Assembly (NCBI RefSeq): GCF_000195915.1 | Contig: NC_002578.1 | Span: 744,001-808,000, forward strand | DNA: 64,000 nt | Direction: 5' to 3' | Origin: Thermoplasma acidophilum DSM 1728 | GTDB lineage: Archaea; Thermoplasmatota; Thermoplasmata; Thermoplasmatales; Thermoplasmataceae | Shown here: piece by piece, positions 7,936 to 42,369 of the stretch | Numbering within the stretch: the stretch's first letter is position 1 | Layout of the letters: every line of letters starts with the position of its first letter | The notes under the pieces: model-generated | Told to the model about the DNA's origin: nothing | The model's input: the letters and a program-made list of their open reading frames with translations, nothing else | The model's database searches: none | Program-made: the position numbers and the translations under genes

Positions 7936-10053
7936 TTAATAAACGGAATATTTTACTCCTTTAAATATTAGAGTACCTGTCCAATCAATAGCCATTCCCC
8001 TGAATTCGACGCTGTATTTTGTTTCATTTAGCGTCAAATGTAATGTAACCTCTTCTAAATCACCGTTGGGCAATTCGGAAGAATTTATTACAGTTTGATT
8101 TAGTGTTACTGTTCCAGCATTTGTAGTTACGTCCAATAATATACTACTATTAGCTTCAGAATTTACAGATTCTAGATAATAGGTTATGTTATATCGGCCC
8201 GGGAGAAGCGTTGTGTAAGGTCCGAACCATGCAGTTCCCATGGTGGTGTTATGATATACGTAGGAACCATTTACAATCGAATAATTGTACTCTCCTGCAG
8301 CGATATAGAATGACGTTGCAGGAAGATAGGCAGAATACGGAATCATCAAGACTGGTAATCCAGTATAGTTGAGCTTGTATACTATCACTCCGTCTTGTCC
8401 AAATGATTCCATATAAACACCATAATGCGAGATAAACGTATTGTTATCTATTAAGTCGTTCATACTTGGATTAAATTGGTTTGACCAAAAACTATCCGGC
8501 TGATTGACCAAATATTCAATGTGATAACCATAAATAAGGTTTCGTAACTGGCTATTCCACGCAAAGGCTATGACATAAGCATTTGTGTCTTTCGCGAACA
8601 CTGGATAAAGATTGTTTATTGTCAAAAGATATGGATCGCTTTCGCCTATTTCCTTCTGTAGTTCAAAAGCTATTTCTGATCCGTTATTATAAGCAAATTC
8701 GTGGAAATTTGCCATAGATCCACTTTCTATGAATATATTGCGAGGTGAGATTGGATCAAGCGGAAGCTCGAAGAGCGAGCTAACTATAACTATCGATATG
8801 ACGCCAACTAATATTTTCTTTATAGTTCTACGGACATCATCGCTGTCTGTCGCTCTCGCGCTTTGAACTATTTTTCTGATGCCAAATAGCGCGCCAATGA
8901 ATATAAACGGTATGATCATAGTGGAATACTGATATCCTAGTGAATAATAAGGGCCATAGCTAGACAAATAAGCATAGAGGAAATACGGAATATCCATCAG
9001 GAGCGATAAGGGATCTAGGAATACTAAAAATCCCGTATTAGCAAAGGCATAGAATGCAAATATAATCTTATCTGGAAAGTTAATTAGAAACGCAGATTCG
9101 ATAAGCATAGGCCGCGTAAACAAATCGGTAAAAAGTCCAGCTAAGCTGCTTGAAACACTCCCTGTGGACATAGTAGATGGTGGGCTTAAGGCCACTGCCC
9201 CTGAGGCGATGAAAGTCTTCATTAGACTTGCAAAATACAAATATCCTACAAGCAAAATTAACGTTATTATTATCTTTATCAATGTTTTACTTCGAACAAT
9301 TTTCTGTAGAACGTATTTCGATTTTGGTGTTTTTTTCAAATTATCTGAAATATTTATATTGGCGATTGTGCGGATTATTTTATGGCAATTTAGGTTTCCT
9401 TCATTCCTGATGCGAAATATAAATTGATATGAAATAATAAAGAAGACCATTATCACAAAGAGGGAATGAAGTGAAATTATAAGAATTAAGACTATTAAAT
9501 TCAGAATTTTATACTTTTTCATAAAGAAATAGAATGAAAGCGGGACAAACAAAATCAAAAAAGGCATAAGATGGAAATCAAACGATAGTGGGCTTTCAAT
9601 GTATGGTGATAATATATATGAGGTTGAGATGAATAACGCCAACATTTCAAGTAATATGTCCTTTTTGAAATTATTAATAAAAAATATTTCCCTCGCAAGT
9701 AGATATATGACCAATCCAGAAAATGATATCATCACAGATTGCATTATCAATAATGTTTTTACGTAAGGAAAGAACCAGTATATCGGATATATAACAAAAA
9801 GGAATGGAGAAAAATGCTCAGAAAAAGAATTAATTAAAAGTGGATTTGCATACATAACATGCCCATGCATTGTATTTTCAAGGATAGAAACGTAAATTCC
9901 TAGATCATAAGCAGTTGCGTTGAGCGAAACATATTTAAGTATAGTATAATATGAGAATAAATACGAAAAAAGTATTGATATTGATAGCATAATATAGAAA
10001 AATGGATCTTTAAAATAATTACTTTCACATGTATGAAATGAAAATTTCACCAT
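7936..10053 (-). CDS. DUF2079 membrane protein with C-terminal ectodomain
   Basis: A 705-residue protein. The first ~430 residues hold some ten membrane segments with the DUF2079 features LNATAYDLGIY near residue 40 and HFSPFLFVIYPIYWFFP near residue 80. The last ~250 residues, from about VSSLFELPLDPISPR, are hydrophilic and rich in Asn-x-Ser/Thr sites (NYSIVNGSYVYHNTT). They end in two beta-sandwich-like stretches, so they are probably outside the cell and glycosylated. The overall form resembles GT-C transferases that use lipid-linked sugars, but no catalytic residue is established. It is the intact paralogue of the broken gene at 2673-4692. The ATG at 10053 has a TATA-like box 26 bases upstream. 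Confidence 0.85.
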   Translation of the reverse strand: MVKFSFHTCESNYFKDPFFYIMLSISILFSYLFSYYTILKYVSLNATAYDLGIYVSILENTMHGHVMYANPLLINSFSEHFSPFLFVIYPIYWFFPYVKTLLIMQSVMISFSGLVIYLLAREIFFINNFKKDILLEMLALFISTSYILSPYIESPLSFDFHLMPFLILFVPLSFYFFMKKYKILNLIVLILIISLHSLFVIMVFFIISYQFIFRIRNEGNLNCHKIIRTIANINISDNLKKTPKSKYVLQKIVRSKTLIKIIITLILLVGYLYFASLMKTFIASGAVALSPPSTMSTGSVSSSLAGLFTDLFTRPMLIESAFLINFPDKIIFAFYAFANTGFLVFLDPLSLLMDIPYFLYAYLSSYGPYYSLGYQYSTMIIPFIFIGALFGIRKIVQSARATDSDDVRRTIKKILVGVISIVIVSSLFELPLDPISPRNIFIESGSMANFHEFAYNNGSEIAFELQKEIGESDPYLLTINNLYPVFAKDTNAYVIAFAWNSQLRNLIYGYHIEYLVNQPDSFWSNQFNPSMNDLIDNNTFISHYGVYMESFGQDGVIVYKLNYTGLPVLMIPYSAYLPATSFYIAAGEYNYSIVNGSYVYHNTTMGTAWFGPYTTLLPGRYNITYYLESVNSEANSSILLDVTTNAGTVTLNQTVINSSELPNGDLEEVTLHLTLNETKYSVEFRGMAIDWTGTLIFKGVKYSVY

Positions 10054-10073
10054 ATGAAAAACCGAATGTAGTC

Positions 10074-10084
10074 CTTTATTTAAA
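10074..10084 (-). promoter_or_regulatory. TATA box of the intact DUF2079 gene
   Basis: The minus strand reads TTTAAATAAAG, centred about 26 bases upstream of the ATG at 10053. This supports that start and a leaderless transcript. Confidence 0.55.
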
Positions 10085-10251
10085 CTTTTATCCTTTGTTT
10101 CTGTCTAAATAAACTAATATTTCAGTACCTGATAAATTGATAATGGGATTTATAGGATATGAGCTGATCAGTTTCTTCCTCGATTATATATCGCACCTAA
10201 ATTATATTGAATCCTGGTTATCGCTGTAATTATCGCGATCTGCTGGAAGAA

Positions 10252-10262
10252 GCTTATATATG
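10252..10262 (+). promoter_or_regulatory. TATA box of the GT2 gene at 10282
   Basis: GCTTATATATG is centred 25 bases upstream of the ATG at 10282. This spacing is why I choose that ATG over an in-frame TTG at 10207, which would lie upstream of the box. Confidence 0.6.
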
Positions 10263-10281
10263 TATTGCATTTACGATTGAT

Positions 10282-11259
10282 ATGATCAGTGTGATAATCA
10301 CAGCATATAATCGTAAAGAATATCTAAAAGAAGCCATTCGATCTGTAATTGATCAGAATTTAGAAAAGGATAAGTATGAAATTATTTTGGTGTCTAATTT
10401 TGATTTCGATATATCAGATATAAGAGTCTCGGTAAAAGTTAAGAAATTGATTCTTGAAGGTTCTATGGGAGAATTCCTTTATCATGCCATTATGAAAGCT
10501 GATGGTGATATTCTTACGTTTATGGATGATGATGACATTTGGCTTCCAGATAAGCTCAAAGTGGTAGAAGAGACTTTCTCTGATTCAAGTATCATATACT
10601 ATCACAATAATTATTTTTATATTAACGAAAGAACAGAGGTCATAGATAAAAAGAGCATATATGATTCAAGAGTATCTATAAAATATTCTATCAGATTATC
10701 AAAAGTTTCATCTTCCAAAGTTATTGCAAAAGCCCTAAAGTACAGGGCTGACTTTAATTCAAGCTGTATATCAATCAGAAAGTGTGTATTGATAGACTTC
10801 ATGCCACAGATTAGAAAAATTATGAGCATGCCAGATAGTTTCTTTTTCTGGATCTCTCTTATGCATGGTGGCGTGATTTATTTAGATAACCAAGTGTTAA
10901 CAGGATATAGACTTCATGCGGATAGAATATCTGGATCGAAAGAAAGCGAATCTCTTATCAAGGAACTTAAACGCAGACTTCCAACAATTGAGATGCTAAA
11001 CAATATATGTTTAACGGAATATTCCAATGATAAACAAATATCTATGTGGCTTAACCTTTATATTATAGAATACAGACTTGCTATATCACTATTGAATACA
11101 CAACCAATAATGGACGTCATTTCGGAATTTATTGAATTACTTAAGGTAAACATTGCTTATACGAATAAACTAAGACACAGACTTTTGATGATATCCTTAC
11201 TATATCTTATTAATCGCAAGATGGCTTTGCAATTAACTCTCTTTCTTAGCAACAAATAA
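10282..11259 (+). CDS. Family 2 glycosyltransferase
   Basis: 325 residues beginning MISVIITAYNRKEYLKEAI, the typical first strand and loop of GT-A family 2 enzymes. The acidic metal/donor motif is FMDDDDIWLPDKL, about residues 83-95. The middle contains the acceptor-side sequence LTGYRLHADRISGS, common in rhamnosyl- and other deoxysugar transferases, although the sugar cannot be assigned. The C-terminal ~80 residues are helical. The gene is intact, and a decayed relative lies at 16778-17700. It acts in the cytoplasm on a glycan precursor. Confidence 0.85.
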   Translation: MISVIITAYNRKEYLKEAIRSVIDQNLEKDKYEIILVSNFDFDISDIRVSVKVKKLILEGSMGEFLYHAIMKADGDILTFMDDDDIWLPDKLKVVEETFSDSSIIYYHNNYFYINERTEVIDKKSIYDSRVSIKYSIRLSKVSSSKVIAKALKYRADFNSSCISIRKCVLIDFMPQIRKIMSMPDSFFFWISLMHGGVIYLDNQVLTGYRLHADRISGSKESESLIKELKRRLPTIEMLNNICLTEYSNDKQISMWLNLYIIEYRLAISLLNTQPIMDVISEFIELLKVNIAYTNKLRHRLLMISLLYLINRKMALQLTLFLSNK

Positions 11260-11384
11260 TAACCTATCTCTTAAAAAATTATTAAAATCTGCATACAGCT
11301 AGTCTATGAGATTGCTCGCACTTTATTAGAATCATTTAACAAATAGCTTCCAGATCTTTTGTAAGATTAAGTATATTGCCCTAG

Positions 11385-11745
11385 AACATGTCCATTGTGA
11401 CGTCATTGCTTTTATAAAATTCTCTCAAAGACCTGTCAAGCCACCATCTTGCCAATTCGACAACATCGAGATGGATAATTATCGTGGTGCGGTCCTCTGA
11501 TCTATGTAAATCTATGATCTTTACATTTTCTAATTCCCTTGTTCATGTGCTCCATTACTCTGTTCTCTATTCCAAGATTACACTCCGCTATGAAAATAAG
11601 AAGCCCTTCAACGCTGCGTTCATCCAGATCGATCAGCATGTTCTTGGAGGCTAAGTGGTTTTCAACAGGATTGATGTAAAAGCCTAAAATCTCATGATAG
11701 CTATATTCGCTTATACTAGGGCAAATATCGTGCTTCTCCATTTAC
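11385..11745 (-). mobile_element. IS256/Mutator-family transposase relic (copy 3)
   Basis: On the minus strand, codons from 11741 give ILGFYINPVENHLASKNMLI, DLDERSVEGLLIFIAECNLG and MNKGIRKCKDHRF. This is the same block as in copy 2 at 6930-7785. After a deletion and frame change the C-terminal end appears (LARWWLDRSLREFYKSNDV, then MDMF). The N-terminal half is absent: the relic abuts the tail of a broken GT4 gene at about 11765. It is a non-functional remnant. The rest of 11260-11385 contains no gene I can see. Confidence 0.8.
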
Positions 11746-11764
11746 TTGTTTAGCTAGTTCTTGC

Positions 11765-12215
11765 ACATCTATATGATAAGTTTTTCCCATCTTTTGACTG
11801 TTTTGTCCCAAGGATATTTTTAGCAAATTGAAGTGATGATGACCATCATTTTTCGGGTTCATTTAAAATTTGAAACGCTGCATCCGAGGGACCTTTTCTA
11901 TCGTCATTTTTGACTTTTATACCATTGATTCCGTCTTCAATGGCGTCGCTGACTCCTAGCACGTCATAGGAAACCGTCGGCGTTCCGGCAGCAGATGCCT
12001 CAAGCGTTGAAAGGCCCCATCCTTCAGTTACGGAGGTATGGACGTTCATCTAGGAAGAACCAACTACTAGGGGAAGTTCATCATCAAATATCCTTCCCTT
12101 AAATGTTATACGATCTTCTAGGTTTAATTCCGAAACTAACTTCCTTAAATGGGGTTCTTTTGGGCCTGTTCTTTTACATCCTGGGATCTGGCTCTTAAAT
12201 TCGTATTTGTCCTAT
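11765..12215 (-). pseudogene. Family 4 glycosyltransferase, C-terminal relic
   Basis: Read on the minus strand: IPGCKRTGPKEPHLRKLVSE, LNLEDRITFKGRIFDDELPL, then an in-frame TAG just before MNVHTSVTEGWG and LSTLEASAAGTPTVSYDVLG, followed by a frame-shifted tail resembling WDKTVKRWEKL. The E-x7-E motif (EGWGLSTLE) and the donor loop are recognisable as GT4. The N-terminal domain is missing, and an opposite-strand membrane-protein relic starts almost at once beyond 12230. It is dead. Confidence 0.8.
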
Positions 12216-12235
12216 TTTGAAATTTTAGGGGTTAG

Positions 12236-14655
12236 GAGATTATATGGCGTATATTGGCCGTCTTATTTAATCATATATCTTCATTGCTAACCTTGCATAT
12301 AGGTGGTATTGGCATAGGCGAGCCATTATGGTTTATTTGCAATATTTTGGTTTCTTTTATTTTTTCTTATAAACTTTTTAATTCCATTCTACATAATAAC
12401 AATATTTCCTATATTTTTGCTCTAATATACACTTTCAGTCCTGCTATGGCCGTTTTGACGTATAGCACTAGCTGGGAAACAGTCCTATCTTATGCTTTTT
12501 CTCCATTGATTTTATATCTATTATATTTGACATTTAACAATCTTGAATTAAAAGGTCTGAGTTTCGATTTAATTTTGATATCGATATTTATGTATGTTTA
12601 TTATTTTGATACAGACGTAATAATGTGGGAAGGAATATTAGTTGTTTCTATGCTTATATATTTGACAATAAGCCATACAAACAGAAAAAATTGTTCTTAA
12701 ATTCTGGAAAGGCTGCCTTATCTATTATTTTATTTAAACTATTTCGGATTCTATGGTTCTTATAATCTCCTTCATTGCAGAGCATGGTGCATCTGCATTC
12801 TCAGTGGCGGACTTCGGTGCGCCGATAATTAAAGATATTTTGATCGATTTGGAAGGCAATTTTAAAGGATACTAGTTGTATTAATATGTTTATTTAATAT
12901 GGGCTGTATCACTGTTTTTCTTATTTCTTTCTATTTACTTCAGGAAAAAAAGTTAAGATGATAGAAATAATTATGTCTGTCTTGTCTTTGAATTTTATAG
13001 TACCAATTGTATAGATAATGTTTAGATTTAATGTAGAGCTTATCGCGATAGTAGTAAATAAATATATCTCTATAGTTGGAGAATAGTCTGTCTCAAGCGG
13101 TTTTATCATGGTATCTAATACGATAATTTTTGACTGCCATTCTCTTTCAAATTCCATTAAACCATTATTTTAAAAATTTTTTAAAAACCAAATTAAATAG
13201 GAAATCGATAAACAGAGTCACGATTATTTTGATCATTGCGATAATATTAATATTTTCTGATATTACCATATTAGTTAAATATGGCCACACTAATTTTCCC
13301 AGCGACATTGAACTACACAATCATTCGCAAAAAATTTTTGAGCTCCTTTGATGTTCCTGAGAATATTACGATTTTATCAAATTGGTTCTATCATAATACA
13401 AATATAAAGTCTGGATATAAGATATATTCAGGTTCTGTTTTTACAAGCACTAATTGGCCATCGGTACTATGACGGATGATACACCGTACGTTAATCTGTC
13501 AACATCTGCAGGTGGTGCCATATCAATTATGGAACATGACGGAAACTTAACGCCACTCGCACGTGCACTCCCGATGGAAGGAGTCGAATATTTTATAATA
13601 TATAAGGGTCCGAACATCAATACAAATATTGTTTATACCGGTCTAGCTTCATTCACTGAGTACGGATAACTATTGCAACTATCATATGCGCCAATAGGTT
13701 CTTGAGAGAAATGGGCCCTTCTTTTGAATAAAAGCAATGCATTTAAAGAGATTGCAAATATTTGAGGATCGATCATTTATAAAAATTTATATTATAGTAG
13801 AATTGTTTATATTTATAATCCTAATGGTACCAGTTATAATTATATAATGAATCATTGCTTAAATCCTATAAAATACGGTTTTTATGAAAATAATATAGAG
13901 TATTTATCTAAAAGTGTCAACATAACAAATTGGGAATATATTAACTATAATATATGATTCATCGATAATGAATCGTATGCATATAAAATAATAAATTCAA
14001 GCAAACAATTTGAAACCTCGATTGAATCAATTTTGAGTGTTACTCCCTATTCATTTTATTATTTTAAATATTTTATTGAAGGCAGTAATATGGCCTATAG
14101 TGTAGAAATGATTGGATGGTACAGTTTAAATGGAACACAAATTGGTAATGTAAGCAGCAATGTTTCCTGAAACCCTTGGTAAGGCAATATAATAAGGTTG
14201 ACGCAGGGCAGTTTTCTAGTTCAAGCACCTTTCGGTGCAAAGAAAGCTTATATACGGCTAGTCATAAACATAAACAATGGCACAACAACTGAAATTAAAA
14301 ATATCTCCGTGGCCGACGTAATTACCAGTAGGATAGATAGATTGAACTATATATCTATCAAACCATATTATATAGAAATAAAAAATGTTCCTAAGGATGC
14401 ACTTATAATATTAGATGAGAATTGCTTTAATAGATGGAAAATATCCGGCCCGTGGACTTCAAGCGAGCCATTTAATAATTATATGTACGTTGCCAACTCT
14501 TTTTTTATATGAAGGCAATCTTTCAAATGTGAGTATAATGCTTATGACTCAGAAGAATTATGATGATTTTCTTTTATCGCAATGCAGTATTTGGATAGCA
14601 ATATTTTTATCAGTACCTATCATATACGTTATGGACAGGAGGATTCATCGATGAA
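12236..14655 (+). pseudogene. Large polytopic membrane protein with C-terminal ectodomain, broken
   Basis: A series of plus-strand frames in the same order looks like one former gene of about 800 codons. A hydrophobic N-terminal part comes first (GIGEPLWFICNILVSFIFSY, then SPAMAVLTYSTSWETVLSYA). A central soluble region follows, including VEYFIIYKGPNINTNIVYTG. Near 14440 the phrase ILDENCFNRWKISG is followed by a final membrane segment (SIWIAIFLSVPIIYVMDRRI). Frameshifts and stops occur throughout. The layout (many membrane segments, then a beta-rich domain, then a last membrane segment) recalls YfhO- or arabinofuranosyltransferase-like GT-C proteins, but I cannot assign a family. Confidence 0.65.
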
Positions 14656-15798
14656 TAAGTTGAAGATATTATTTGTTCTCTTCACAAATATAAAAACAGG
14701 TGCGGGTACAGAAAAGTCCCTATATTATTATTTAAAATATGCAGACATTTCAAAATTTGATATCACAGTTTTACAAACAAATCTAATGCCCGGTGGCCAG
14801 AGATTAAGTGATTCTGATCTGGAAACAATAAAGAATAAGGCCAAATTCATAGAGATAAAGGACTATAGAGGTCTTTTAGGTTTCATTAGGAATAAATATC
14901 TTTCTTATCTTTTAAATTTATTTATATTACCCATGCTATTAAAAATTTGTAAGTATACAGTGTATCATAAAAAACTAAAACAATTGAAGGATAGCAATGT
15001 TATATATTTATTCAATAATGATTATTCGAATTTGTTTTCTCATAAGAGTGTCGTAATTGGAAGCAATCATTGTGCTTTTGATAACCTTGATTCATTCAGC
15101 CAAAAATTAATTGCAAGACTTCTCTCACTTCGTATTATATTGCCGTCTATTACTGCTTTTCATTTGTTTCCTCATAATGTAAGCTTTAAAGAGTATTTTG
15201 GGAATAAACCATTAATATTATTAAGCAATGGCGTAGACACAGATCTATATTATCCATCGCATAGCCAAAATTTAAAGACTAAAATACTCTTTGTTGGAAG
15301 ACTAGAGGAAGTAAAAGGTATTTTAATGGCAATAAAAGTTTATAATAATATTAAAAAATGTTTCCTGTTGAATTTGTTATAGTTGGTTCGGGCAGCTTGG
15401 AATCTGAAGTTGATAAATTATGCGCCAGCGACACTAATGTTAAACATTTTAAACACGTTGCAGAAAATGATTTAGCCAATATTTATCGATCATGTGACAT
15501 CTTTCTGTATCCGACGCAAGGTGATAGTTATGCTCTCGTAGTTTTAGAAGCTCTGTCATCTGGGTTAAAGGTTGTAACTACTGTTAACATATATCGTGTG
15601 TATAATGATTTTATAAGATTTAATGTAATAAAGTTTGCAGATTTTGATGAGAAATCTTTGACGCAGGCATTATTGGATATAAAAAACACGGTGATAAACA
15701 AGAATGAAATACATAACTATATTGAGAAAAATTATAGCTGGAAAAAAGTATCGGAGAATTTGTTTAATTTAATGTATAACTTAGCAGTAAAAAATTAA
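14651..15798 (+). pseudogene. Family 4 glycosyltransferase with one frameshift
   Basis: The ATG at 14651 opens a GT4 frame (MNKLKILFVLFTNIKTGAGT; donor-domain entry LFVGRLEEVKGILMA) that runs into the wrong frame after NNIKK. The -1 frame starting at 15358 continues it exactly (FPVEFVIVGSGSLESE, DIFLYPTQGDSYALVVLEAL). The break lies at a run of six A (15353-15358). All other GT4 features, including E-x6-E-like spacing around SYALVVLEAL, are kept, so the lesion is recent, a sequencing slip, or a slippage site. Given the decay around it I call it a pseudogene. Restored length would be about 381 residues. Confidence 0.75.
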
Positions 15799-15800
15799 AT

Positions 15801-16679
15801 CTATATTCTTGACGCATAAATATAGCCAACAGACATATTTGGATTGGATGCGTGTCTGTTATAATCAGATCTAGGTTTAGTATAACGAACCTTAAAACCA
15901 CAGCGCCTAAGTTTATCCACTAAGTCATTATATCCATAATGATATTCTATCTGCATCTTAGAAAATTTCCTTAATATATCTTTAGAGGATGCCATTATTG
16001 CCTTGTATTCGCAATCCTTGCAATCTATCTTCAAATATGGATCAGCCAGATCATAGCGCAAAACTAAACTATTCAGGGTTATTTCATCTATATTATATCC
16101 ATCTGGGCCCTCAACGACATTGTAAGCTTTGCTGACTTTCCTATCAACATTAATTATATATAATCATTTTTATATCCTAAAACGGCATTAATTGTAATTA
16201 TCTCGTTTTGTAAATTATTTTTTCTATATTTTTGTTAAGTACTGAAAAATTAGAAGGATAAGGCTCAATAGCAATAGCCATTATTGCCCCGTTAACAACA
16301 AAATATATAGATGAATCACCGATATTCGTACCTATATCCAGTACTTTTAGGTCTTTGCGTCTGCTTAAAAACCGATATTCATTATATAAAAAGACTGCAA
16401 ATGGATCGGAGGACTCCTTGCGATAATGAAACAAAATATTATATCCAACTAGCAGATAATTACTGATCACGTCGCCATATCCTTCAATGTTTACTTTAAT
16501 ACCTCTTCTATCTGTTGCCATAAACGGAAACACATATGCTTTAAGCTTTATGCCTGCTCTGATCCGATCTCTATAAGTTCTTTGACTATTTTAGCACCTT
16601 CGAATAGATGCCCGGCTCTATCTATTATATCCATTACATACGAATAATAATCGTGTTTATAATAACTTTTGAATTTCAT
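15801..16679 (-). pseudogene. FkbM-family methyltransferase, broken
   Basis: The minus strand starts MKFKSYYKHDYYSYVMDIID at 16679, shifts frame near 16550, then reads through the SAM-binding motif LKVLDIGTNIGDSSIYFVV and AIAIEPYPSNFSVLNKNIE. A further disrupted stretch (16060-16200) precedes DPYLKIDCKDCEYKAIMASS, the FkbM hallmark LKIDCEGxE. FkbM enzymes O-methylate sugars and other small molecules, so this was probably a glycan methyltransferase. At least two frame breaks make it a pseudogene. Confidence 0.8.
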
Positions 16680-16777
16680 AAAGACATGATAAAATTATAA
16701 AGCAAAATGAACCGGCTATAGGCTAAAAATTATATACAATATTCAGGCTAGAGGCTAAATAGACAATATTCTTATAA

Positions 16778-17700
16778 GCGTAATCGCAAATTGCTATAGT
16801 AGAAAAAATATATTGGAGAAGTCATAATATCCTTACTCAATCAGGACTTTAATAGAAGAAATTATGAGATAATTGTCGTTAAAGGATTTGATGACGAGAA
16901 GACGGATGAATTTCTTGACAGGAAAGAAATTATCAATGTCCTTGTGGATGGATCATACAATGGCGAGAGATTGGTTGAAGGCATTAGAATATCTTAAGGT
17001 CAATTGATCTGTTTTATGGACAATGACAATACATTTTCTCCTATAAAGCTTAGTAGAATATACGATCTCTATAACGCTATTCGTTTCGAATTCTATCATA
17101 ATGCTTACGCGTCTAAACCAGAGGGCATTTTTATGCAGGCTGGTGATTATTTGTCTTTTAAGAACGATCATAAACCTAGAAAGCTACGCAAATTTCTAAA
17201 ATACAATATTGAATATAAGTTAAGCATTAATTCTAGTTCCATATGCATTAAGAAAGATATTGTCGAGGATCATCTTGAGGAATTTAGGAGGGTAACTGTT
17301 GGTTAGGATGTATACCTATTCTACTTATATTTATCACATGCTCAAAATTTTATTTCTGATTACAGAAAGCATGGCAGCTATTCACATAATTCTCGATATC
17401 GCTCTGAATTTAGGAGAAGAGAACTTGTAAGAAATAGCGATGCAGATTGAGCGTGCAAACTATACTATGATATTGCAGAGCACAAATTTTTAAAAAAATC
17501 ACAGGATATGAGGCTTTTAGTTATAAGATTCCGTTATATATCTGCGACTTCGATAGTTCACAATCGTTAAAAACAATAATGTTGCTATTATTCTTAGTAA
17601 ATGCAAAAAGTTATTCGATTAAATTTAGATTTCATACTCTTGCTTGGGAATTCTGTCGAAGATATTTAGGAGCTATGCCTTTAATATATACTACTATTTA
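16778..17700 (+). pseudogene. Family 2 glycosyltransferase, broken
   Basis: Plus-strand frames give VIANCYSRKNILE, SLLNQDFNRRNYEIIVVKGF, an in-frame stop after EGIRIS, then LICFMDNDNTFSPIKL, YNAIRFEFYHNAYASKPEG and SSSICIKKDIVEDHLEEFRR. The order and wording parallel the intact GT2 at 10282-11259 (AYNRKEYL, NYFYINER, SSCISIRK). The metal motif is MDNDNT. Later parts (DYRKHGSYSHNSRYRS) are interrupted by several stops. It is a decayed paralogue or a recent competitor copy. Confidence 0.75.
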
Positions 17701-17719
17701 AGCCAAAGAGGTATGCTAC

Positions 17720-18310
17720 GATCTAGTAGGCTGTCTTGTTTTTAGCGAATTATGATTTTCGTGATCTCCCTCCCCATTTCTCCTGTCATTATGTTAGATA
17801 TGATCATGAGGTTGTAAGCGATTGTCTTTAATCCAACCGCTGTATCGTGATCTCTGTTTGCTAATGACAATTCTCGGAATCGATGTTTACTCAGCAGCAG
17901 TGATCATGTCTGAAATAAATGATATACACCGATTCAGCAGTAAAGAGAAACTAGCACCCTATGCTGGCCTTGTACCAAGGCAGAATCAATCGGGATCGAA
18001 TGATCTCAGGGTCACATATCGAGGCATGATCCCTCCATGCTCAGGTTCGTGCTTGTGAACGCAGCACTCTTAGACGAATTCGAAGAGGATAAAGATAAAG
18101 TACCTTAAGCTTGTAAAGCGATTGGAAAAGAATCGTGCTATCGTTGCGATAGCTAGGATCCTAGCAGAAATCATATGGACGATGCTTTCAAGGCATATAG
18201 CTTTCTACGATGAGATAGACAGGCTGACGGAGAAGAAGATGGAGTCAATGCGCATAAGATCCCTTCGTCCTAACATATCGAAGAACGTGATCGATACCAT
18301 AAAGCTCTAA
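17720..18310 (+). mobile_element. IS110/IS116-family transposase relic (C-terminus)
   Basis: Three frames join to the C-terminal transposase_20 domain of IS110-family elements: LLMTILGIDVYSAAVIMSEI, FSSKEKLAPYAGLVPRQNQS and GSNDLR. A frame change follows, then LVKRLEKNRAIVAIARILAE and IIWTMLSRHIAFYDEIDRL. The N-terminal DEDD catalytic half is absent and frameshifts interrupt the rest, so the relic is dead. IS110 elements lack terminal inverted repeats, so I cannot set exact ends. Confidence 0.85.
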
Positions 18311-18469
18311 GAATCATAATATTACATAAATGTTAGATAAACTTTTTTCATAGAAGACTCCCTAAACAAAAAAAATTAAAATCAATAAATCAAAAATTAT
18401 AGCATTAAAGAAAAAGATTAAAGATAGGAAAGCGATTAAAGTTTAAGATAAAACAATGGTGAGAATTGA

Positions 18470-19192
18470 ATGAATAATATTAGAAAGATATTTCCTATGA
18501 TCTATGGATTGTTAAATTACGGATTATATTATTCTTTTTCATATTATGCAATGGAATTAATCTTTAGTGAACACTATAAGAAATGGAACTTTGTTCCTTT
18601 CAATTATTATGAATTTGGCACTGGGGAAGGTAATTCTTTAAAGGCATTCCTAAAAGCACTGAAACAAATCTCAAAACAGTTCAATGTTAACTTGGATAAA
18701 TTTAACATATTTTTGTTTGATAGCTTCGAAGGTTTACCTGAATATAACGATCCAAGAAATGAAAATCCGGCTTGGCGAAAGGAACAGTTTAAAGGAACTG
18801 TTGAGCAAATCAAAAGTATTATAAAGAAGATTTTGCCTGAAATAGTATCGAATGTAAAATTTATAAAAGGATATTACGAAGACACGTTGACTGCTGAATT
18901 AAGAAATTCTCTAATTGATTATCCCCCTTCTATCGTTAATATAGATGTGGATTACTATCAATCTGCGAAGACCGTCCTAGAATGGATTTACAATCTCGCT
19001 CAAGATGGAACGATTTTTTATTTTGATGATATTTGGGAATATCTGGGAAATTTATCAAAGGGAGAATACAGGGCCATAGATGAATTCAATAAGAAACATT
19101 TAAAGGATGGATTTCAATTATATCAATTTTACAATTTTGGTATTCCTAATTTTACTGGAAAAATATTCACATTCAATAGAATTGATGAATAA
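18470..19192 (+). CDS. TylF/macrocin-O-methyltransferase-like SAM methyltransferase
   Basis: 240 residues, intact. It has a Rossmann-type motif I (YYEFGTGEGNSLKAFLKA, about residues 46-63) and the family-typical FLFDSFEGLPEYND near residue 82. Acidic residues at NIDVDYYQSAK (about 163) and YFDDIWEYLG (about 185) match the metal-ligand Asp pair of TylF-like O-methyltransferases. It probably O-methylates a sugar of the surface glycan. The ATG is at 18470. It stands alone between an IS110 relic and a stretch without genes, and has survived where its neighbours decayed. Confidence 0.8.
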   Translation: MNNIRKIFPMIYGLLNYGLYYSFSYYAMELIFSEHYKKWNFVPFNYYEFGTGEGNSLKAFLKALKQISKQFNVNLDKFNIFLFDSFEGLPEYNDPRNENPAWRKEQFKGTVEQIKSIIKKILPEIVSNVKFIKGYYEDTLTAELRNSLIDYPPSIVNIDVDYYQSAKTVLEWIYNLAQDGTIFYFDDIWEYLGNLSKGEYRAIDEFNKKHLKDGFQLYQFYNFGIPNFTGKIFTFNRIDE

Positions 19193-20826
19193 TTAATTTT
19201 AAAATTGTATCTTTAATGACATTATTATTAAATACATAAGATACAATGACAACAAGTTTGATTATGATGATGGAATAGTTCTTAGGAAACATATAATTGC
19301 TAATAGAATACGATATATGGGCAAGGAATTTAACAATCTTAACAAGGCATCTATATTAGGTATATATGAAGATTCATACCTTGAATATGAGAATTAAGGG
19401 CATTCTATAATTGGATTCTATCATTGAAGTCCAAAGACGTTAAGGATAGCAGGATATCACGGCATGCCCTCTACAAAATCAAAACAAAGATAAGGAGTGG
19501 AATGCATATGAACCCAAACGTCAGGATCGTTAAAATTCTGTTAACTGTAGAAAGTTAGCAAATCTATAGACACAAAAGATTAAAAAATTAGCTTCCAAAT
19601 ATCCAATGTTAGACATATAAAATATTGGCAAATTTTAACATTTGAACAACCTTGCGTTTGACCAAAATAGTCTAATAGACCAGACTTTAAGGTAAATTTA
19701 GATTATTAATATATTCAATAATATGCTTCTCATTAAAATCACAACTTTTTTTGACGTCTTATTTATATCTCCGTGAGTGTCGTGAGTATGATTCTCTTTT
19801 GAACTCTGATGGTGCCGCCAGTGGAATCTTCGATGAGATAAATAATGGAATACCATGGTGATCTGATTCCTATTCTAAGGAAACTAGTTAAGTACGGATA
19901 ACGCATTAACTTGAATGGAATGGAGGTAAAAAATATTTCTAGAATTAGTCTTAGTCGATATAATAAGAAAATAGGATATATATGCAAAACTCTTGAAGTC
20001 ATCTGGTGAATGATAACGTTATTATCACCGATTGGATATAGTTTGTCGCTGTATAACTATCGTTATACGGCATGATTATGGTCATGAATCGATTGCAGGC
20101 CCGTTATGTTCCAGATAGATCGGATAAACAAATCAGAGTACGCGCCAGGTTATCCGCGTGAAAACTATAAGGCGTCCCAGGCCAGCGCTGGCCATGGTAT
20201 ACTGATCGAAGATACAGGCCATACCGCAGCGAAATGACGGCCTGAATCCGCATTGAAGTGGCTAGAGGTGCGCGCTTCTATACTTCCGGCTTTACGTCTT
20301 GCTGTCAATAATATCGCTATTATATAGCTATAATAACGAGACAATTGATATCTTGTATTGCAACATGGCTTATCAGTCATCATCATATATGATCTGCTCT
20401 TATGCATTTTATCCATGTAAAATTTATAATTGATTTAAGGGGACATCGACTGAGTTATGGATATTTTATCTCTATTCAGTTAGCGATGGTGTAAAAGAGC
20501 CAATTATGATTTCGCCGGCTTTCGTCATGGAACTATGGGCATGTTTTGCACATCGCTATACGATGAAGCCATTTAAGCCTGATCTGAAATGAATCGTTTG
20601 GAGTACGTTTGAAATGACATGCAGGAATTCCATCATACCCTGTATAGGGCTAAAGAGATGGTCTAAATGGTTTCTGCTGGATAAGTATTCTGCTGAAACT
20701 AGATCAAAGGCTGAGCGATCGTATGCCTCGTTCAGGCTTTGAGAGAGGTACCGCATGGACCAGGGCCGGCGCTTCGTCCCATAAGACCTCATAAAAATCC
20801 ATATAACTATGAAATATACTATTTAA
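19193..20826 (+). other. 1.6 kb without an intact gene; unidentified remnants
   Basis: No frame here looks like a working gene. At 19430-19560 a plus-strand scrap reads DVKDSRISRHALYKIKTKIR, helix-turn-helix-like and perhaps the end of a lost gene. At 20792-20556 a minus-strand frame (LSQSLNEAYDRSAFDLVSAE, then NHLDHLFSPIQGM) has the feel of a transposase C-terminus, but I cannot place it in a family. The stretch is best seen as the decayed edge of the glycan island. Confidence 0.5.
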
Positions 20827-36814: not shown

Positions 36815-37468
36815 TTAAACATCGCTGCATTTTGATCTGAGCCCGACCAGAATGTACCGCCACACTGCGTTCCTCTTCTGATCCTTAGGCTCCATGGCAA
36901 ACTCAGGCTCGTACATGCTCGATATCTTTGACATGTCCGCTCTGAATGGGTCCACGAAAATGGAAGCGACATTTTTCCTGATGAAGCCATCGGCGTTGAT
37001 GAAGTAGCTGCCGCATTTCAGCACGTTCCAAACGTTCCTGTAGACGCTGAAGCGCTGTCTACCGGTATTGTGAAAGACAAGGTTGGATACAGCAAGGTCA
37101 AACTTATCTTCTATATTGAACGGCTTCGTTATGTCCGCCTCCACGACGGTGACCCTGTCCAGAACATCCGCCAACCTGAGGTTCTCAATGAGCCTTTCTC
37201 TGGAGTTATCCTTGAGTGATCCCATGGAAAAGGTATCTATGGCCGTTATACGCGAATTCTTGAAATAATCGGCGCAGAGGATGGTGAGAAAACCCAGGCC
37301 GCAGCCAACATCTATGATGTTCATGTCCGCATCTTGATCTATTCCGATCTTTCCGAAGGCCTCGGTGAACATTATCCTGGCCATATACCGCAATCTTTCA
37401 GATTCCTCCCGGGATGAATGATGGTATACGCCGAAGTCCGGATCAGCCATACATAAGCCTAAGTTCAT
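36815..37468 (-). CDS. Class I SAM-dependent methyltransferase
   Basis: 217 residues. Motif I is MNIIDVGCGLGFLTILCADY (about residues 49-68), the acidic end of strand 2 is ITAIDTFS, and motif post-II is VVEADITKPF. Motif IV is FDLAVSNLVFHN and the late region is LKCGSYFINADGFI. This is the layout of Methyltransf_25/31 small-molecule methyltransferases. The substrate cannot be told. It is transcribed alone; the 245 bases toward 36569 hold nothing I recognise. Confidence 0.8.
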   Translation of the reverse strand: MNLGLCMADPDFGVYHHSSREESERLRYMARIMFTEAFGKIGIDQDADMNIIDVGCGLGFLTILCADYFKNSRITAIDTFSMGSLKDNSRERLIENLRLADVLDRVTVVEADITKPFNIEDKFDLAVSNLVFHNTGRQRFSVYRNVWNVLKCGSYFINADGFIRKNVASIFVDPFRADMSKISSMYEPEFAMEPKDQKRNAVWRYILVGLRSKCSDV

Positions 37469-37582: not shown

Positions 37583-38245
37583 TCACTGCCTTACCATGAG
37601 CTTTGCAGCAAGCTGGAACAGCGAGATCGAGTGTATCCATACCCTGCCAGGACCGCGCATGTGTGCGAAGAAAAGGCCCTCCCCCTCCAAGCCGCCCAGT
37701 ATCATGGTGCGGAGGCCGCCTATCCTCTCCACGTTGTACTGCACGGTATCGTCGAAGGCGAGAACATGGCTCAGCTCGACGCTGATCTCATCGCCCGCAC
37801 CGAGATCCCTCTCTATGACCTGCCCGTGGCCGTGAAGGAATATGGAACCTGTGCCGGAAAAGTGCTCAAGGAAGAGACCCTCGCCTCCGAGCAGGCCCTG
37901 CCAAATCCCAGCAAATTTGGTGGAGTACTGTATTCCTGAATCCATGCAGAGAAAGGCGTTGAACTCGGCGATTATGCCGCCACCCCTGAGATCTATCCTG
38001 TGAATCTTTCCCGGAAGAAAACCTGCGGACGCAACCTCACCTGGCCCATCCACCTTCAGCAGGAATACGGCGGATCCGCCCAGCATGTGCGAGATCATTC
38101 CCTTCAGCCCGCCTGCCCTTACATCCAGCCTGGATTGCCGATCCTTGTAAATCAGATGCCCTGGCTCGACGTATACCGATTCCCCGGATCCGAGAACAGC
38201 CCTGAGGTACTGCACGTCTGTGCCCTGTATTTCGTAATCGACCAT
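37583..38245 (-). CDS. AIM24/TIGR00266 family protein
   Basis: 220 residues, glycine-rich double beta-helix-like repeats: VYVEPGHLIYKD near the N-terminus, then GEGLFLEHFSGTGSIFLHGH and EGEGLFFAHMRGPGRVWIHS. These repeated G-E-G-L-F and G-x-G-x-V/I phrases define the AIM24/TIGR00266 family, widespread in archaea and bacteria, of unknown biochemical role. It is cytoplasmic with no signal peptide, monocistronic, and convergent with no close partner. Confidence 0.85.
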   Translation of the reverse strand: MVDYEIQGTDVQYLRAVLGSGESVYVEPGHLIYKDRQSRLDVRAGGLKGMISHMLGGSAVFLLKVDGPGEVASAGFLPGKIHRIDLRGGGIIAEFNAFLCMDSGIQYSTKFAGIWQGLLGGEGLFLEHFSGTGSIFLHGHGQVIERDLGAGDEISVELSHVLAFDDTVQYNVERIGGLRTMILGGLEGEGLFFAHMRGPGRVWIHSISLFQLAAKLMVRQ

Positions 38246-38316: not shown

Positions 38317-41300
38317 TCAGAGTCCGTAGGCTATCAGCAATGTATCCAGGTAATAGTCTGCCAGATCAACCGTAATGTTGAAAGCGTTGAATGATCCAAT
38401 GCCCACGAAGTCGTTCCAGCCCTGCCCCAGGTAGCCGCTTCCGACCATGCCGGGGTACGGCTGCACGTAGTCCACCATGTAGTACGCCGGAAGGCCGAAT
38501 TCATAACCGTAGCCCAGTTCATACAGTGCTGGCTGTATCCAGCCGAAGTATCCAACCTCACCATTAGGAGTAAGGAACCCAGATTCTATGTCGGCGAATA
38601 TACCGGCTGATATGGGCGTTGCGAAGCTGGTACCACCGGCTACCCCGAAGAAGTCCCTGTACGCGAAGACCATTTTGGCTGCAGGCATGGCTATATCAGG
38701 CTGCCCACGGTTTGTGAACGTAGATGGGACCACTATCAGCTCCGAGCTCTGGTAGGTTGGCCTGGCGAAGAAGAAGCTATTGCCGCCTCCGGAACCAACT
38801 GGGCCGCCGTACCAGCTGTATTCAGGCTGGTACCATCCAAACTGCCCGGTTATGTATCCGGTCTGGTTCAGCACAGGATATATACCGCCAACGGACACTA
38901 TGTACTCTGACGCCATCACCGTCAGGTAGTATATGCTGTGGCTGTCCGCGGATCCTAGGAATATGGTGGTGCCTTCGGCTGCGGCCTGCAGGCCTATGAG
39001 GTTGTATATCTGTGCAAAGCCTGTGTCATGGTGGAACTGAAGCTCTGCCCAGCTTCCGGATATTATCTGCGGGTGTATGACGTTCAGCATGTAGTAGAGC
39101 TCTAGGTTTATGGCATTGTCGCCTATTCCCGTCAGGTTGAACGGCTGCATCACATCGTATATGGTGGCGTTCGGTGCCATGGCTCCGGACCACTCAACGT
39201 CGAGATCTGCCTCAACGCCCTCAGGATACGGGTTCATGCCGTTCGGAGTGAGGTTCACGAACACGACCTGCGGGTGGTGTATCCCATACTGATCCCAGAA
39301 CATGGATATTGCGCTCATGTTAGCGGATTCGCCCACACCGAGTATACCTATCTTCACGCCCTTGCCGGTAAAGCCAAGCTGTTCGAGGCCAGTTACGTTA
39401 TAGAACTGTGCCAGATGAACGGGCGTCAGGATGTTGCTGGATCCGTTCAGGTTCTGGTCTGTGAGCGTTGAAATCCCGGACACCTCCGTCTTCAGATCCT
39501 GCCTGTTCTGCGTGCTCAGCAATGCTTCGCTTGAATAGCTCAGCCCGTAGACATGCATGATGAGGCCGGAGAACTGGGCAGGTATGTACGGATTCGCCGT
39601 GTTCGTCATGAAGACAGCGCCGCTGCCGCCTGGATATGTGAACTCAAAGTTGAACAGCATGGTTCCGAACGCCCTTTCGAACATGCCCACTGTTCCCTGG
39701 AGTACGATTACCAGTGGCGTATATGCGTATGACCATACCCTGAAGCCCATGGCCGAATAGTATGATTCCACCTGGGATATCTGTGACTGCGACGGATAGT
39801 ACGATGCCATGAACTCCTGCGGTGTCAGGTAATCGTGGAAGTACGGGCTCATAGGAGAGTTCACTAGGGCAACGAACTGTTCCAGCTGGCTCAGGTTCGT
39901 CATATTCAGATACAGCGTTACGTTTATCACGTTGTCCGGGTTGGCTGGCCCGAGGTTAAGGAGGTACTGCTGGAACTCAGGAGCGGTCATCATGTAGGGT
40001 ACGTTACCGGAGAGCATCACCGAATTTGGCGGCTGGAGATCTATCACGTTCAGAGGCTCGTAATCACCGCCATACTCTATCATTCCGCTGTCGTTGTAGG
40101 GTATGTTGCCGTTGAAGTTGTACCAGAAGTTTCCACCCTGGTAATCGCCGCCAACAATGCTGCCTGTCAGCTGTAAGCCGTCAAACATGCGAACGGCTGT
40201 GGCTGGCATCTTCGAGACGTTCCACATGTTAATGTATACTGCCGGAGATCCGCTGTATATGCTGTACGATGGACTGATGGCTGTTAGCTCAGTTGCGAAG
40301 AAGTTGTTGTATATTGTGTTGTTGGACGAGAATACCGCGAGGCCAAGCGGACTGCCCCACAGGTTCCATGCCTGCTCAAGCTGGGTATTGGCAAGCAGAG
40401 GCGAGTTGAGGAAGTAGTTGCCCCATACTGTGTTGTTCATGCCTCCGTAGATCAGCACGGACGAATCCATGGACATGAACGTGTTCGAAGCTATCAGCGA
40501 ATCTGATGTGTTCCAGAATACAACGTTTGCAAGGGGCTCTCCGCTGTCGAAGGATGTGAACCATCCTGTTACTTCGCTCCCGTACAGTATGAAGTGAGAT
40601 GAGTTGAATATCCAGTACCCCAGATAGTTGTAGGGTACAAGGCCTTCAAAGACAGCGTAACCGGCAAATATGCCCTGGTAAAGTACCGGAAATGTTGGCA
40701 TCTGGGAGGCCATGGTGTAGGCAGACGTGTTGATCAGCATGACTCCCGCGAACTGCGGGAAGGAGTAGTCGTTTATCTCGCCGAACAGCGGGCTTATGTA
40801 ACCGTATTCGTTGTTGAAGAGCATATACGGGTTAGATGCCGTCCCGCTGCCGGATGAAGATATGTTGGCGATCTGGTTGTTGTTCATGGCCATCAGTGGG
40901 GTGTACACGCCGGCCGCCATATCCAACGGCAGAACGAAGGTGTTGGATGAAGTGAGCATCTGCGCCTGTGCGCGGTGATCGCTCAACAGCGCCAGTCCGG
41001 CATACTGCCCAGCCGGGAGCCAGAAATCGTATGAACCGGACATGGTCAGCGGAACATATCCGGCCTGGCTGTAGTTTATAACGTCACCAGGGCTGACAAA
41101 GAGGAAGGCATTGCTGGGCATAACGCTGCCCGTGAACTGCTCCATGGTGGTAACGGAGGAAACATTCCACATACCGTAGAGCAGGGAAGGCCCTGTGTTG
41201 AGCAGGACCTGATCCATTGAATTCCAGGCTATGGCGGTTCCCACGGATGTCTCTCCGGTATCCGTGCCGAAGTCAAATGCACTGGGTACGTTCACATAGG

Positions 41301-42369
41301 ACTGCACCGTCATCGCTGCAGGAGGCTTGCCGGATGCATGTTGCGATCCGGGTGGTGGCGGAGGCGGAGGAGGTGGTGGTGGAGGCGTTGGATGCATCAT
41401 CGGATTGGCTGCAGGTATGTATTTGAGATCCATCATTCCGTTTATATCCGTCACCGTTGTGGTGGATCCGCCTCCAGGCCCGCCTATCATTATCTCGGCG
41501 TCATAGAGGAGGCCCAGTGGCGTGAGCTGCGTTCCACTAACTCTGAAGTAGGATGGCGGTGCCTTATAGGCCGGAGGCATTCCATAGGTAGAGTTGAACG
41601 TGACCCTGTCGTACGTTCCACTAACGCCAAGAGTCGGTATTGAATAATTGAAGTAGAAAACGTTGTTCCCATTGATCTCCGATGTATTCAGGTATAGCGT
41701 CAGGGTGAATGGTGGTGGAAGGTAGAATGTGGGCCCAAGTGCTATGTGAACTCCCGAGTACGGATATAAAAGACCCGTGGAATTGAGTATTGCGTTGCTG
41801 GACATGACAGCAGTGGGGCTGCTGAAGTTCCATATATTGTCAACGAAGCTGATTTCGTGTGTTCTCACAGAATAGCTCGCAACGTTCTGTGTCCAAAAGG
41901 TGTACGAGGAATTGCCGAAAAGTGTCGTGTTTGCAGTTACCGTGTTGAGCTGAAAAGTCATAGAGGATGGGGCATCATCTGCGAGATTGAATACGCTGAG
42001 GTTCGTTATGTTGATAGTTGCGGCAAAGCTGGACGCATAATAGTTGCTGCCAACGAGCTGGCCGGAGATATTCTCAAGCCCGAAAAATCCTATGCCCATT
42101 GGCGCAGGCGACTGTGTATAGAGAGGCTGAACGGTTCCATTCTGATACAGGAAGCGGTGATCTTTGGCCGGCAGGAAAAGGTAATTGTTCACCGGCTTCA
42201 ACACGCTGGTCTGCGTTTCGTAAACAGGCTTGCTGCTGGCCTTCAGGCCGGTATCCTTCTGTATGGATGGCGTCGACGCGCTGTTGAAGGCAAAATTGAT
42301 GCCTAGAAAACCGATCACTGCAATGACTGCTATCAATATCGTTATGAACATAATTTTTCTATTGTACAT
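38317..42369 (-). CDS. Exported thermopsin-like / beta-helix / sedolisin fusion protease
   Basis: 1350 residues, intact. Residues 7-28 are a signal or anchor segment. Residues ~60-330 match the thermopsin family (A5): QSPAPMGIGFFGL, MTFQLNTV, YTFWTQNVA, VDNIWNFSSP and PTFYLPPPFTLTLYLNTS. A linker with 12-13 consecutive prolines follows near 335. Residues ~540-800 hold Asn-rich beta-helix repeats (NTVWGNYF, NNTIYNNFF). A prokumamolisin domain comes next (~820-960, with FHDYLTPQEFMASYYPS), then a sedolisin S53 domain. In S53 the Glu/Asp pair is EADLDVEW (~1056-1060), the oxyanion Asp is in SADSHS (~1140), and the Ser is in GGTSFATP (~1247). The calcium-site sequence GWNDFVGIGSFNAF lies near the C-terminus. 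Both protease families work at acid pH outside the cell, fitting a pH 2 habitat. Confidence 0.9.
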   Translation of the reverse strand: MYNRKIMFITILIAVIAVIGFLGINFAFNSASTPSIQKDTGLKASSKPVYETQTSVLKPVNNYLFLPAKDHRFLYQNGTVQPLYTQSPAPMGIGFFGLENISGQLVGSNYYASSFAATINITNLSVFNLADDAPSSMTFQLNTVTANTTLFGNSSYTFWTQNVASYSVRTHEISFVDNIWNFSSPTAVMSSNAILNSTGLLYPYSGVHIALGPTFYLPPPFTLTLYLNTSEINGNNVFYFNYSIPTLGVSGTYDRVTFNSTYGMPPAYKAPPSYFRVSGTQLTPLGLLYDAEIMIGGPGGGSTTTVTDINGMMDLKYIPAANPMMHPTPPPPPPPPPPPPGSQHASGKPPAAMTVQSYVNVPSAFDFGTDTGETSVGTAIAWNSMDQVLLNTGPSLLYGMWNVSSVTTMEQFTGSVMPSNAFLFVSPGDVINYSQAGYVPLTMSGSYDFWLPAGQYAGLALLSDHRAQAQMLTSSNTFVLPLDMAAGVYTPLMAMNNNQIANISSSGSGTASNPYMLFNNEYGYISPLFGEINDYSFPQFAGVMLINTSAYTMASQMPTFPVLYQGIFAGYAVFEGLVPYNYLGYWIFNSSHFILYGSEVTGWFTSFDSGEPLANVVFWNTSDSLIASNTFMSMDSSVLIYGGMNNTVWGNYFLNSPLLANTQLEQAWNLWGSPLGLAVFSSNNTIYNNFFATELTAISPSYSIYSGSPAVYINMWNVSKMPATAVRMFDGLQLTGSIVGGDYQGGNFWYNFNGNIPYNDSGMIEYGGDYEPLNVIDLQPPNSVMLSGNVPYMMTAPEFQQYLLNLGPANPDNVINVTLYLNMTNLSQLEQFVALVNSPMSPYFHDYLTPQEFMASYYPSQSQISQVESYYSAMGFRVWSYAYTPLVIVLQGTVGMFERAFGTMLFNFEFTYPGGSGAVFMTNTANPYIPAQFSGLIMHVYGLSYSSEALLSTQNRQDLKTEVSGISTLTDQNLNGSSNILTPVHLAQFYNVTGLEQLGFTGKGVKIGILGVGESANMSAISMFWDQYGIHHPQVVFVNLTPNGMNPYPEGVEADLDVEWSGAMAPNATIYDVMQPFNLTGIGDNAINLELYYMLNVIHPQIISGSWAELQFHHDTGFAQIYNLIGLQAAAEGTTIFLGSADSHSIYYLTVMASEYIVSVGGIYPVLNQTGYITGQFGWYQPEYSWYGGPVGSGGGNSFFFARPTYQSSELIVVPSTFTNRGQPDIAMPAAKMVFAYRDFFGVAGGTSFATPISAGIFADIESGFLTPNGEVGYFGWIQPALYELGYGYEFGLPAYYMVDYVQPYPGMVGSGYLGQGWNDFVGIGSFNAFNITVDLADYYLDTLLIAYGL

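Follow-up and report, generated by a model that had tools for sequence, protein, structure and literature searches.

A thermopsin and a pro-S53 protease in one reading frame

We examined a stretch of 64,000 nucleotides of the Thermoplasma acidophilum DSM 1728 genome (NC_002578.1, positions 744,001 to 808,000; hereafter the window, in whose own coordinates all positions are given) that contains a gene joining two protease families. The gene is an unbroken minus-strand open reading frame (ORF) that runs from 42369 to 38317 and encodes 1350 residues. A thermopsin (family A5) domain, a beta-helix, a Pro-kumamolisin activation domain and an S53 catalytic domain all lie in this one frame, as the original prediction, made from the DNA alone, had proposed without assigning a strand. 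Its thermopsin-like N-terminal region is confirmed by a Pfam Thermopsin (PF05317) match at residues 79-321, inside the 60-330 interval where an A5 match was to be expected, with an E-value of 6.6e-56 and a score of 190.1 bits, where 25 is the cut-off, covering positions 4-234 of the 256 in the profile. The prokumamolisin domain was likewise found (Pro-kuma_activ, PF09286, residues 805-944, E 3.3e-31). Pro-kumamolisin (structure 1t1e) aligns with the propeptide and S53 part (E 2.8e-25), and TPP1 also with the catalytic domain; this domain is complete, as had been claimed, with Glu1053, Asp1057, Asp1142 and Ser1248 all present. The Pfam Peptidase_S8 match is weak (E 0.0024), and NosD (PF05048) falls below the Pfam cut-off in the 1350-residue protein (11.5 bits, with 23.6 required).

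As in kumamolisin and TPP1, the propeptide of the S53 half precedes its catalytic domain, which carries the Glu, Asp, Asp and Ser residues. Unlike those enzymes, the S53 half is preceded by a second protease and has an Asn as the terminal residue of its calcium site. Residues 1-30 form a putative signal peptide or membrane anchor. Because the protein contains no Cys, 27 Lys and Arg residues and 32 N-glycosylation sequons, its composition appears to fit an exported, acid-stable protein. The polyproline stretch had been read as a linker. It is instead a loop of the A5 domain, because the A5 motif DTGET (370-374) lies C-terminal to the polyproline (329-340) and residues 327-354 are modelled as a disordered loop within A5. 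Between the window protein and those of other Thermoplasma species this loop is 42-57% identical.

Table 1. Features of the A5-S53 fusion gene (pLDDT, predicted local distance difference test score)
Feature	Residues	Position in window	Strand	Basis
Whole gene		38317..42369	minus	1350 aa, stop included; same frame in 5/5 genomes of the genus
N-terminal hydrophobic segment	1-30	42280..42369	minus	Sequence; fused relatives also start hydrophobic
A5 (thermopsin) domain, predicted glutamic-peptidase-type beta-sandwich	85-402	41164..42117	minus	Pfam; AlphaFold2 pLDDT 90; structural matches
Proposed oxyanion-hole pair, Gln140 and Asn142	140, 142	41950..41952, 41944-41946	minus	Codon checked; candidate role
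Proposed dyad partner, Gln161 (WTQNV)	161	41887..41889	minus	Codon checked; candidate role
Proposed catalytic general base, Glu292 (DAEIMIGGP)	292	41494..41496	minus	Codon checked; candidate role
Polyproline loop within A5, expanded and variable	322-357	41299..41406	minus	pLDDT <50 at 327-354
Beta-helix	465-781	40027..40977	minus	Structural match to PL6 chondroitinase B 7o78
Pro-kumamolisin activation domain	805-944	39538..39957	minus	Pfam PF09286, E 3.3e-31
Variable junction, proposed autocleavage linker	946-980	39430..39534	minus	Low identity; putative cleavage
S53 catalytic domain	981-1350	38320..39429	minus	Matches pro-kumamolisin 1t1e, E 2.8e-25, and TPP1
S53 Glu1053 and Asp1057 (EADLD)	1053, 1057	39199..39213	minus	10/10 fused proteins
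S53 oxyanion Asp1142 (GSADSHS)	1142	38944..38946	minus	9/9 fused proteins long enough
S53 nucleophile Ser1248 (GGTSFATP)	1248	38626..38628	minus	9/9 fused proteins long enough

The A5 and beta-helix unit is an ordinary long thermopsin

We examined 80 A5 loci from named genomes for domain partners and found A5 and a beta-helix joined in a single ORF at 79 of them. This combination is therefore the ordinary long form of thermopsin, and only the S53 part, with its propeptide, is an addition. The predicted beta-helix is indeed present, since positions 414-730 of the structural model match PL6 chondroitinase B (7o78, Z 12.0), but it is not special to the fusion. The unit spans about 750-800 residues in the family. 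Many of its members stop no more than about 70 residues past the beta-helix and others continue in a tail of 250-870 residues, and the S53 part is joined at that same C-terminal end; among the 80 loci it is carried by only L116-L121 and the broken locus L143.

With Sulfolobus thermopsin, SsMTP and SsMTP-1 the window protein shares a Pfam Thermopsin score far above the cut-off, an acidophilic host, export, the conserved motifs DN.W, YD.VTF, DAE and DTGET, and a repeat region after the catalytic domain. It differs from these A5 proteins in its complete C-terminal pro-S53 protease and in the polyproline loop within the domain.

A PNGase A domain (PF12222) is joined to A5/beta-helix proteins at the same C-terminal point in G316 (L245:659-4696), G313 (L243:2077-4512) and G292 (L244:3-2690). 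The protein of G316 is complete and sister to the A5-S53 clade; the copies of G313 and G292 end at contig edges ahead of the A5 core. Because it is also fused to this domain, the A5 and beta-helix unit seems to be a carrier onto which secreted hydrolases are added. A further candidate fusion with S53, in G008, appeared to reach into the propeptide (query 357-948) and was rejected because neither a propeptide nor an S53 domain turned up there in a profile scan.

Distribution and origin of the fusion

The fused frame was found at full length in ten of 117 surveyed genomes of the order, with eight copies complete and two cut by contig ends. The carriers are all five Thermoplasma genomes, two genomes of one further genus (G206 and G308), two of another (G306 and G307, which hold the cut copies) and G288. 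The full-length fused proteins are 74-88% identical to the window protein in the other four Thermoplasma and about 60% identical in other genera. The copy in G288 may be mis-binned, because its contig is colinear with that of G206, which belongs to a different genus, over 10.8 kb at 85% identity. An eleventh copy, in Thermogymnomonas acidicola JCM 13583 (L143), consists of several broken frames, and its contig carries many short ORFs; sequencing error is a possible cause because the assembly scores only 50% complete. The fusion was searched for within the class. Relatives of the S53 half without the fusion, 50-55% identical, are present in G194, G158, G289 and G290.

For the phylogenetic trees we removed the duplicate L016, rows L005, L034 and L026, and later L033. 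All fused rows form one clade in the A5 tree (support 100/99), with an unfused A5 as its sister. They also form one clade in the S53 tree built with nearer outgroups (96/98, and 91/98 in an earlier tree), outside of which the unfused S53 genes fall. Rooting of the S53 tree is unstable when the outgroups are very distant, and an alternative topology with the unfused S53 rows as a single clade is not rejected (approximately unbiased test, p-AU 0.309). Because the fused rows are a single clade in both trees, the fusion most likely arose once, when an ordinary A5 and beta-helix gene was extended at its C-terminal end by a pro-S53 gene. An origin of the unfused S53 genes by later loss of the A5 part is less likely.

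In G020, from another family of the class, an A5 gene and an S53 gene follow one another head to tail, unfused and both on one strand (L253:9237-15415), and the S53 protein is 48% identical to the S53 half of the window protein. This adjacency without fusion is a sign that the A5 and S53 enzymes are functionally linked.

Conservation and selection in both halves

Conservation of A5 residues was counted over 119 rows, a set that includes near-duplicates and one fragment. Asn142 is present in all rows, Gln140 in 118 (the exception is the fragment), Gln161 in 116 (two His, one gap) and Glu292 in 117 (one Ala, one gap). The window protein keeps all residues that are invariant across diverse A5 proteins, and Q140, N142, W159, Q161, N178, W180, D254, D290, E292, T371 and E373 are all present in it. 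In alignment A1, which holds ten fused proteins and one unfused, Q140, N142, D177, N178, D254, D290, E292, D370 and E373 are kept in 11/11 proteins.

The ratio of nonsynonymous to synonymous substitution rates (dN/dS) was obtained for the window against G043, the window against G133 and G133 against G198, while several pairs with saturated dS yielded no value. For these three comparisons it is 0.027-0.049 in the N-terminal A5 part (residues 75-321), where the highest value overall is 0.053, and S53 gives 0.031-0.094. In the junction (946-980) it is 0.14-0.24, and 0.28 with G075. The junction is also 51-71% identical between the window protein and its relatives, compared with 69-92% for both flanking domains. 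Judged by these sequence comparisons, the fusion is under strong purifying selection in both halves. The proposed fusion of two proteases is real and conserved. Both halves look functional, since each retains its candidate catalytic residues and has a dN/dS of about 0.03.

Predicted fold and candidate active site of the A5 domain

In the article that has family A5 as its subject (PMC3842238), Rawlings gives the catalytic residues, catalytic type and fold as unknown, sets glutamic catalysis aside because of pepstatin, and counts Gln109, Asn111 and Gln128 of thermopsin as well conserved. From the motifs and spacing given there, these are taken to be Gln140, Asn142 and Gln161 of the window protein.

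An AlphaFold2 model of residues 52-800, made with 80 sequences, had a pLDDT of 90 and a predicted template modelling score (pTM) of 0.88. Below an E-value of 0.001, Foldseek matched the A5 model to HC7 only, through eight of its chains; this protein is described as a di-glutamate mucinase from Bacillus cereus (PMC13003899, partial text). Top among the VIA-align matches listed are HC7 (Z 15.2), 4qhw (13.7), which is annotated as a putative sugar hydrolase, and scytalidoglutamic peptidase (12.0, over 186 of 206 residues). Next among the matches listed come YncM (11.1), neprosin (10.9) and CPAVM1 (10.3). The known proteases that lead this structural list, at Z 10-15, are glutamic or possibly so; the only other listed match in that range is a chondroitinase (12.0), which lies on the beta-helix. 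Unrelated sandwiches among the matches listed reach Z 8.6 at most, the first being a beta-glucanase (8.6). No pepsin-like (A1) chain is among the 50 VIA-align entries listed, which do not exclude one.

In the model Gln140-x-Asn142 lies on one long strand, Gln161 on the next, and Glu292 on a later one that is separated from it by five long strands and two short ones. Aspergilloglutamic peptidase has its catalytic Gln on strand 5 and its catalytic Glu, which a Trp touches, on strand 11 (PMC8147669, partial text). Neprosin works with E188 and E297 and also needs Q173 and W175 (PMC9343461, partial text). Gln140/Asn142, Gln161 and Glu292 of the predicted fold seem to lie on strands that match those of the essential residues of glutamic peptidases. 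We propose that Gln140-x-Asn142 may be comparable to Gln173-x-Trp175 of neprosin, and, from the motifs in PMC3842238, that the candidate dyad corresponds to Gln128/Glu259 in Sulfolobus acidocaldarius thermopsin.

The glutamic peptidases (scytalidoglutamic G1, neprosin and HC7) are thus closest to the predicted A5 fold, and their catalytic strands seemingly correspond to those of the invariant A5 Gln and Glu; moreover, G1 and neprosin are acid-active like thermopsin. A5 differs from these enzymes by its longer core, its beta-helix and the extra invariant residues D290, T371 and E373, and shows no detectable sequence similarity to them. On the strength of the model we lean slightly towards A5 being a branch of the glutamic peptidases, with a Gln161/Glu292 dyad and a Gln140-x-Asn142 oxyanion pair. 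Thermoplasma would then have fused a glutamic and a serine-carboxyl peptidase in one zymogen.

Several points weigh against this assignment. The A5 profile showed no sequence similarity to 28 archaeal eqolisins (probability about 0), and it matched no chain when compared with solved structures. Because both profile comparisons were negative, the kinship of A5 with glutamic peptidases rests on predicted structure. Gln161 and Glu292 were mapped to the glutamic dyad by strand order and residue type and not by superposition, and other catalytic pairs are possible because D290, T371 and E373 are as invariant as Gln161 and Glu292. Moreover, the diazoacetyl-norleucine ester (DAN) inhibits thermopsin (PMC3842238) but not neprosin (PMC9343461, partial text).

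Eqolisin (Peptidase_A4) sequences themselves occur in the genus: a partial match containing a stop codon lies in the T. acidophilum genome (G000:C1:340653-340958), and G133 and G198, which are also Thermoplasma genomes, have matches without stops.

Proposed mechanism and alternative explanations

The window protein is probably an exported double-protease precursor that digests extracellular protein at about pH 2 and whose A5 half is of the glutamic type. S53 enzymes are cut at a variable linker between propeptide and protease on activation, and kumamolisin and TPP1 free themselves by self-cleavage at acid pH. In the same way, the S53 half would cut itself free within the junction at residues 946-980 at acid pH, and the A5 and beta-helix unit would depart with the S53 propeptide as its tail. 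Because one chain would split after S53 self-cleavage, a single gene could deliver two enzymes at 1:1 in the same place. The A5 half would not be a pepsin-like aspartic enzyme; Glu292 would act as general base with Gln161 as its partner, and Gln140 and Asn142 would form the oxyanion hole. Two observations on the S53 half count against this scheme. At the calcium site Asn1319 replaces the usual terminal Asp, the GxGWD motif reading GQGWND (Asn1319, Asp1320), and position D1300 varies among Asp, Asn and Glu. In addition, a prediction of the beta-helix, propeptide and S53 region from seven sequences had a mean pLDDT of 29 and left the S53 half unfolded, and this model was not used.

The A5 half could instead be an aspartic peptidase of the classical kind that uses a pair of catalytic Asp residues, its likeness to glutamic enzymes reflecting just a shared beta-sandwich. 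Thermopsin is inhibited by pepstatin, DAN and 1,2-epoxy-3-(p-nitrophenoxy)propane (EPNP) (PMC3842238), Asp290 and Asp254 are present in 118/119 and 115/119 A5 rows, and structural matches to beta-sandwiches are frequent, with beta-glucanases and alginate lyases at Z 8 to 8.6. However, Asp370, in the sole pepsin-like motif, is Asp in only 74/119 rows, and the best-scoring known proteases in the structural comparison lie well above such sandwiches. Pepstatin carries less weight as an objection, since the glutamic peptidase neprosin is sensitive to it and to EPNP, and inhibition by these compounds is no proof of an aspartic type (PMC9343461, partial text); the thermopsin-like SsMTP-1 is insensitive to pepstatin (PMC3958906, partial text). 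An aspartic A5 strikes us as doubtful. We also consider it quite unlikely that the A5 and beta-helix half no longer cuts and serves as a surface anchor, a substrate binder or an extended pro-segment for S53. A thermopsin-family membrane protein of S. acidocaldarius, Saci1846, helps in S-layer anchoring (PMC12207459, partial text), and the A5 half does occupy the position of a pro-segment, N-terminal to the propeptide. Yet the nine candidate residues are kept throughout alignment A1 and dN/dS is as low in A5 as in S53; a role of the A5 part as chaperone or pro-segment, raised in the original prediction, is disfavoured since its polar residues are invariant.

Even with both halves active, the fusion may be a convenience of co-expression, the halves being independent after self-cleavage and their union having no mechanistic meaning. 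Unfused forms of both halves exist, the two are neighbouring genes in G020, and the junction is variable; we found no direct counter-point, although the fused form is kept in all five Thermoplasma genomes. We hold this explanation to be a tenable one, if not the one we would choose. By comparison, an assembly or frameshift artefact joining two genes is hardly credible. The split copy of Thermogymnomonas acidicola would favour it, but the identical frame is found in the eight complete and two contig-end-cut copies, and the recurrence of the full-length frame in five Thermoplasma genomes and in other genera excludes chance or assembly error.

Genomic surroundings

Directly downstream of the fusion gene, on the same strand, are an AIM24-family gene (37583-38245) and a methyltransferase gene (36815-37468). 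ORFs of similar size and start sequence follow the fusion gene in the same order in G043, G133 and G198, and not in G075. Elsewhere in the window the G+C content is 0.31-0.34 over positions 8001-20000, compared with about 0.47 over 22-38 kb, and the low-G+C stretch may be acquired DNA.

Earlier descriptions and significance

The original prediction regarded the combination of domains as undescribed, which is too strong. A 2008 survey of serine proteases tabulates 'Thermopsin-Subt NP_394205.1' from T. acidophilum, filed under subtilisins (S8) with 'thermostability' as the guessed role (PMC2605481, partial text). This entry is almost certainly the fusion protein of the window, because a single ORF in the T. 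acidophilum genome joins A5 with an S53 propeptide. The S53 propeptide, the beta-helix, the spread and the mechanism are not given in the accessible part of that survey. In Cuniculiplasma, S53 and A5 enzymes are secreted as separate proteins (PMC5155288, partial text). Within the accessible text of the open-licence literature, we found neither the fusion beyond that entry nor A5 treated as a glutamic type. To that extent, the fusion is already in print as a table entry, of which the accessible text gives neither the S53 character nor the distribution, the single origin or the anatomy.

The strongest new point is the predicted fold, together with a concrete and testable set of candidate glutamic-type residues for family A5. 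The predicted fold, the invariant Gln and Glu and the existence of a pepstatin-sensitive glutamic peptidase make the catalytic type of A5 answerable by a few point mutants. The fusion itself would place two acid-active proteases of differing mechanism in one product. If the glutamic assignment is true, A5 would not have been invented by archaea alone; it would be an archaeal branch of a protease fold that also occurs in fungi, plants and bacteria.

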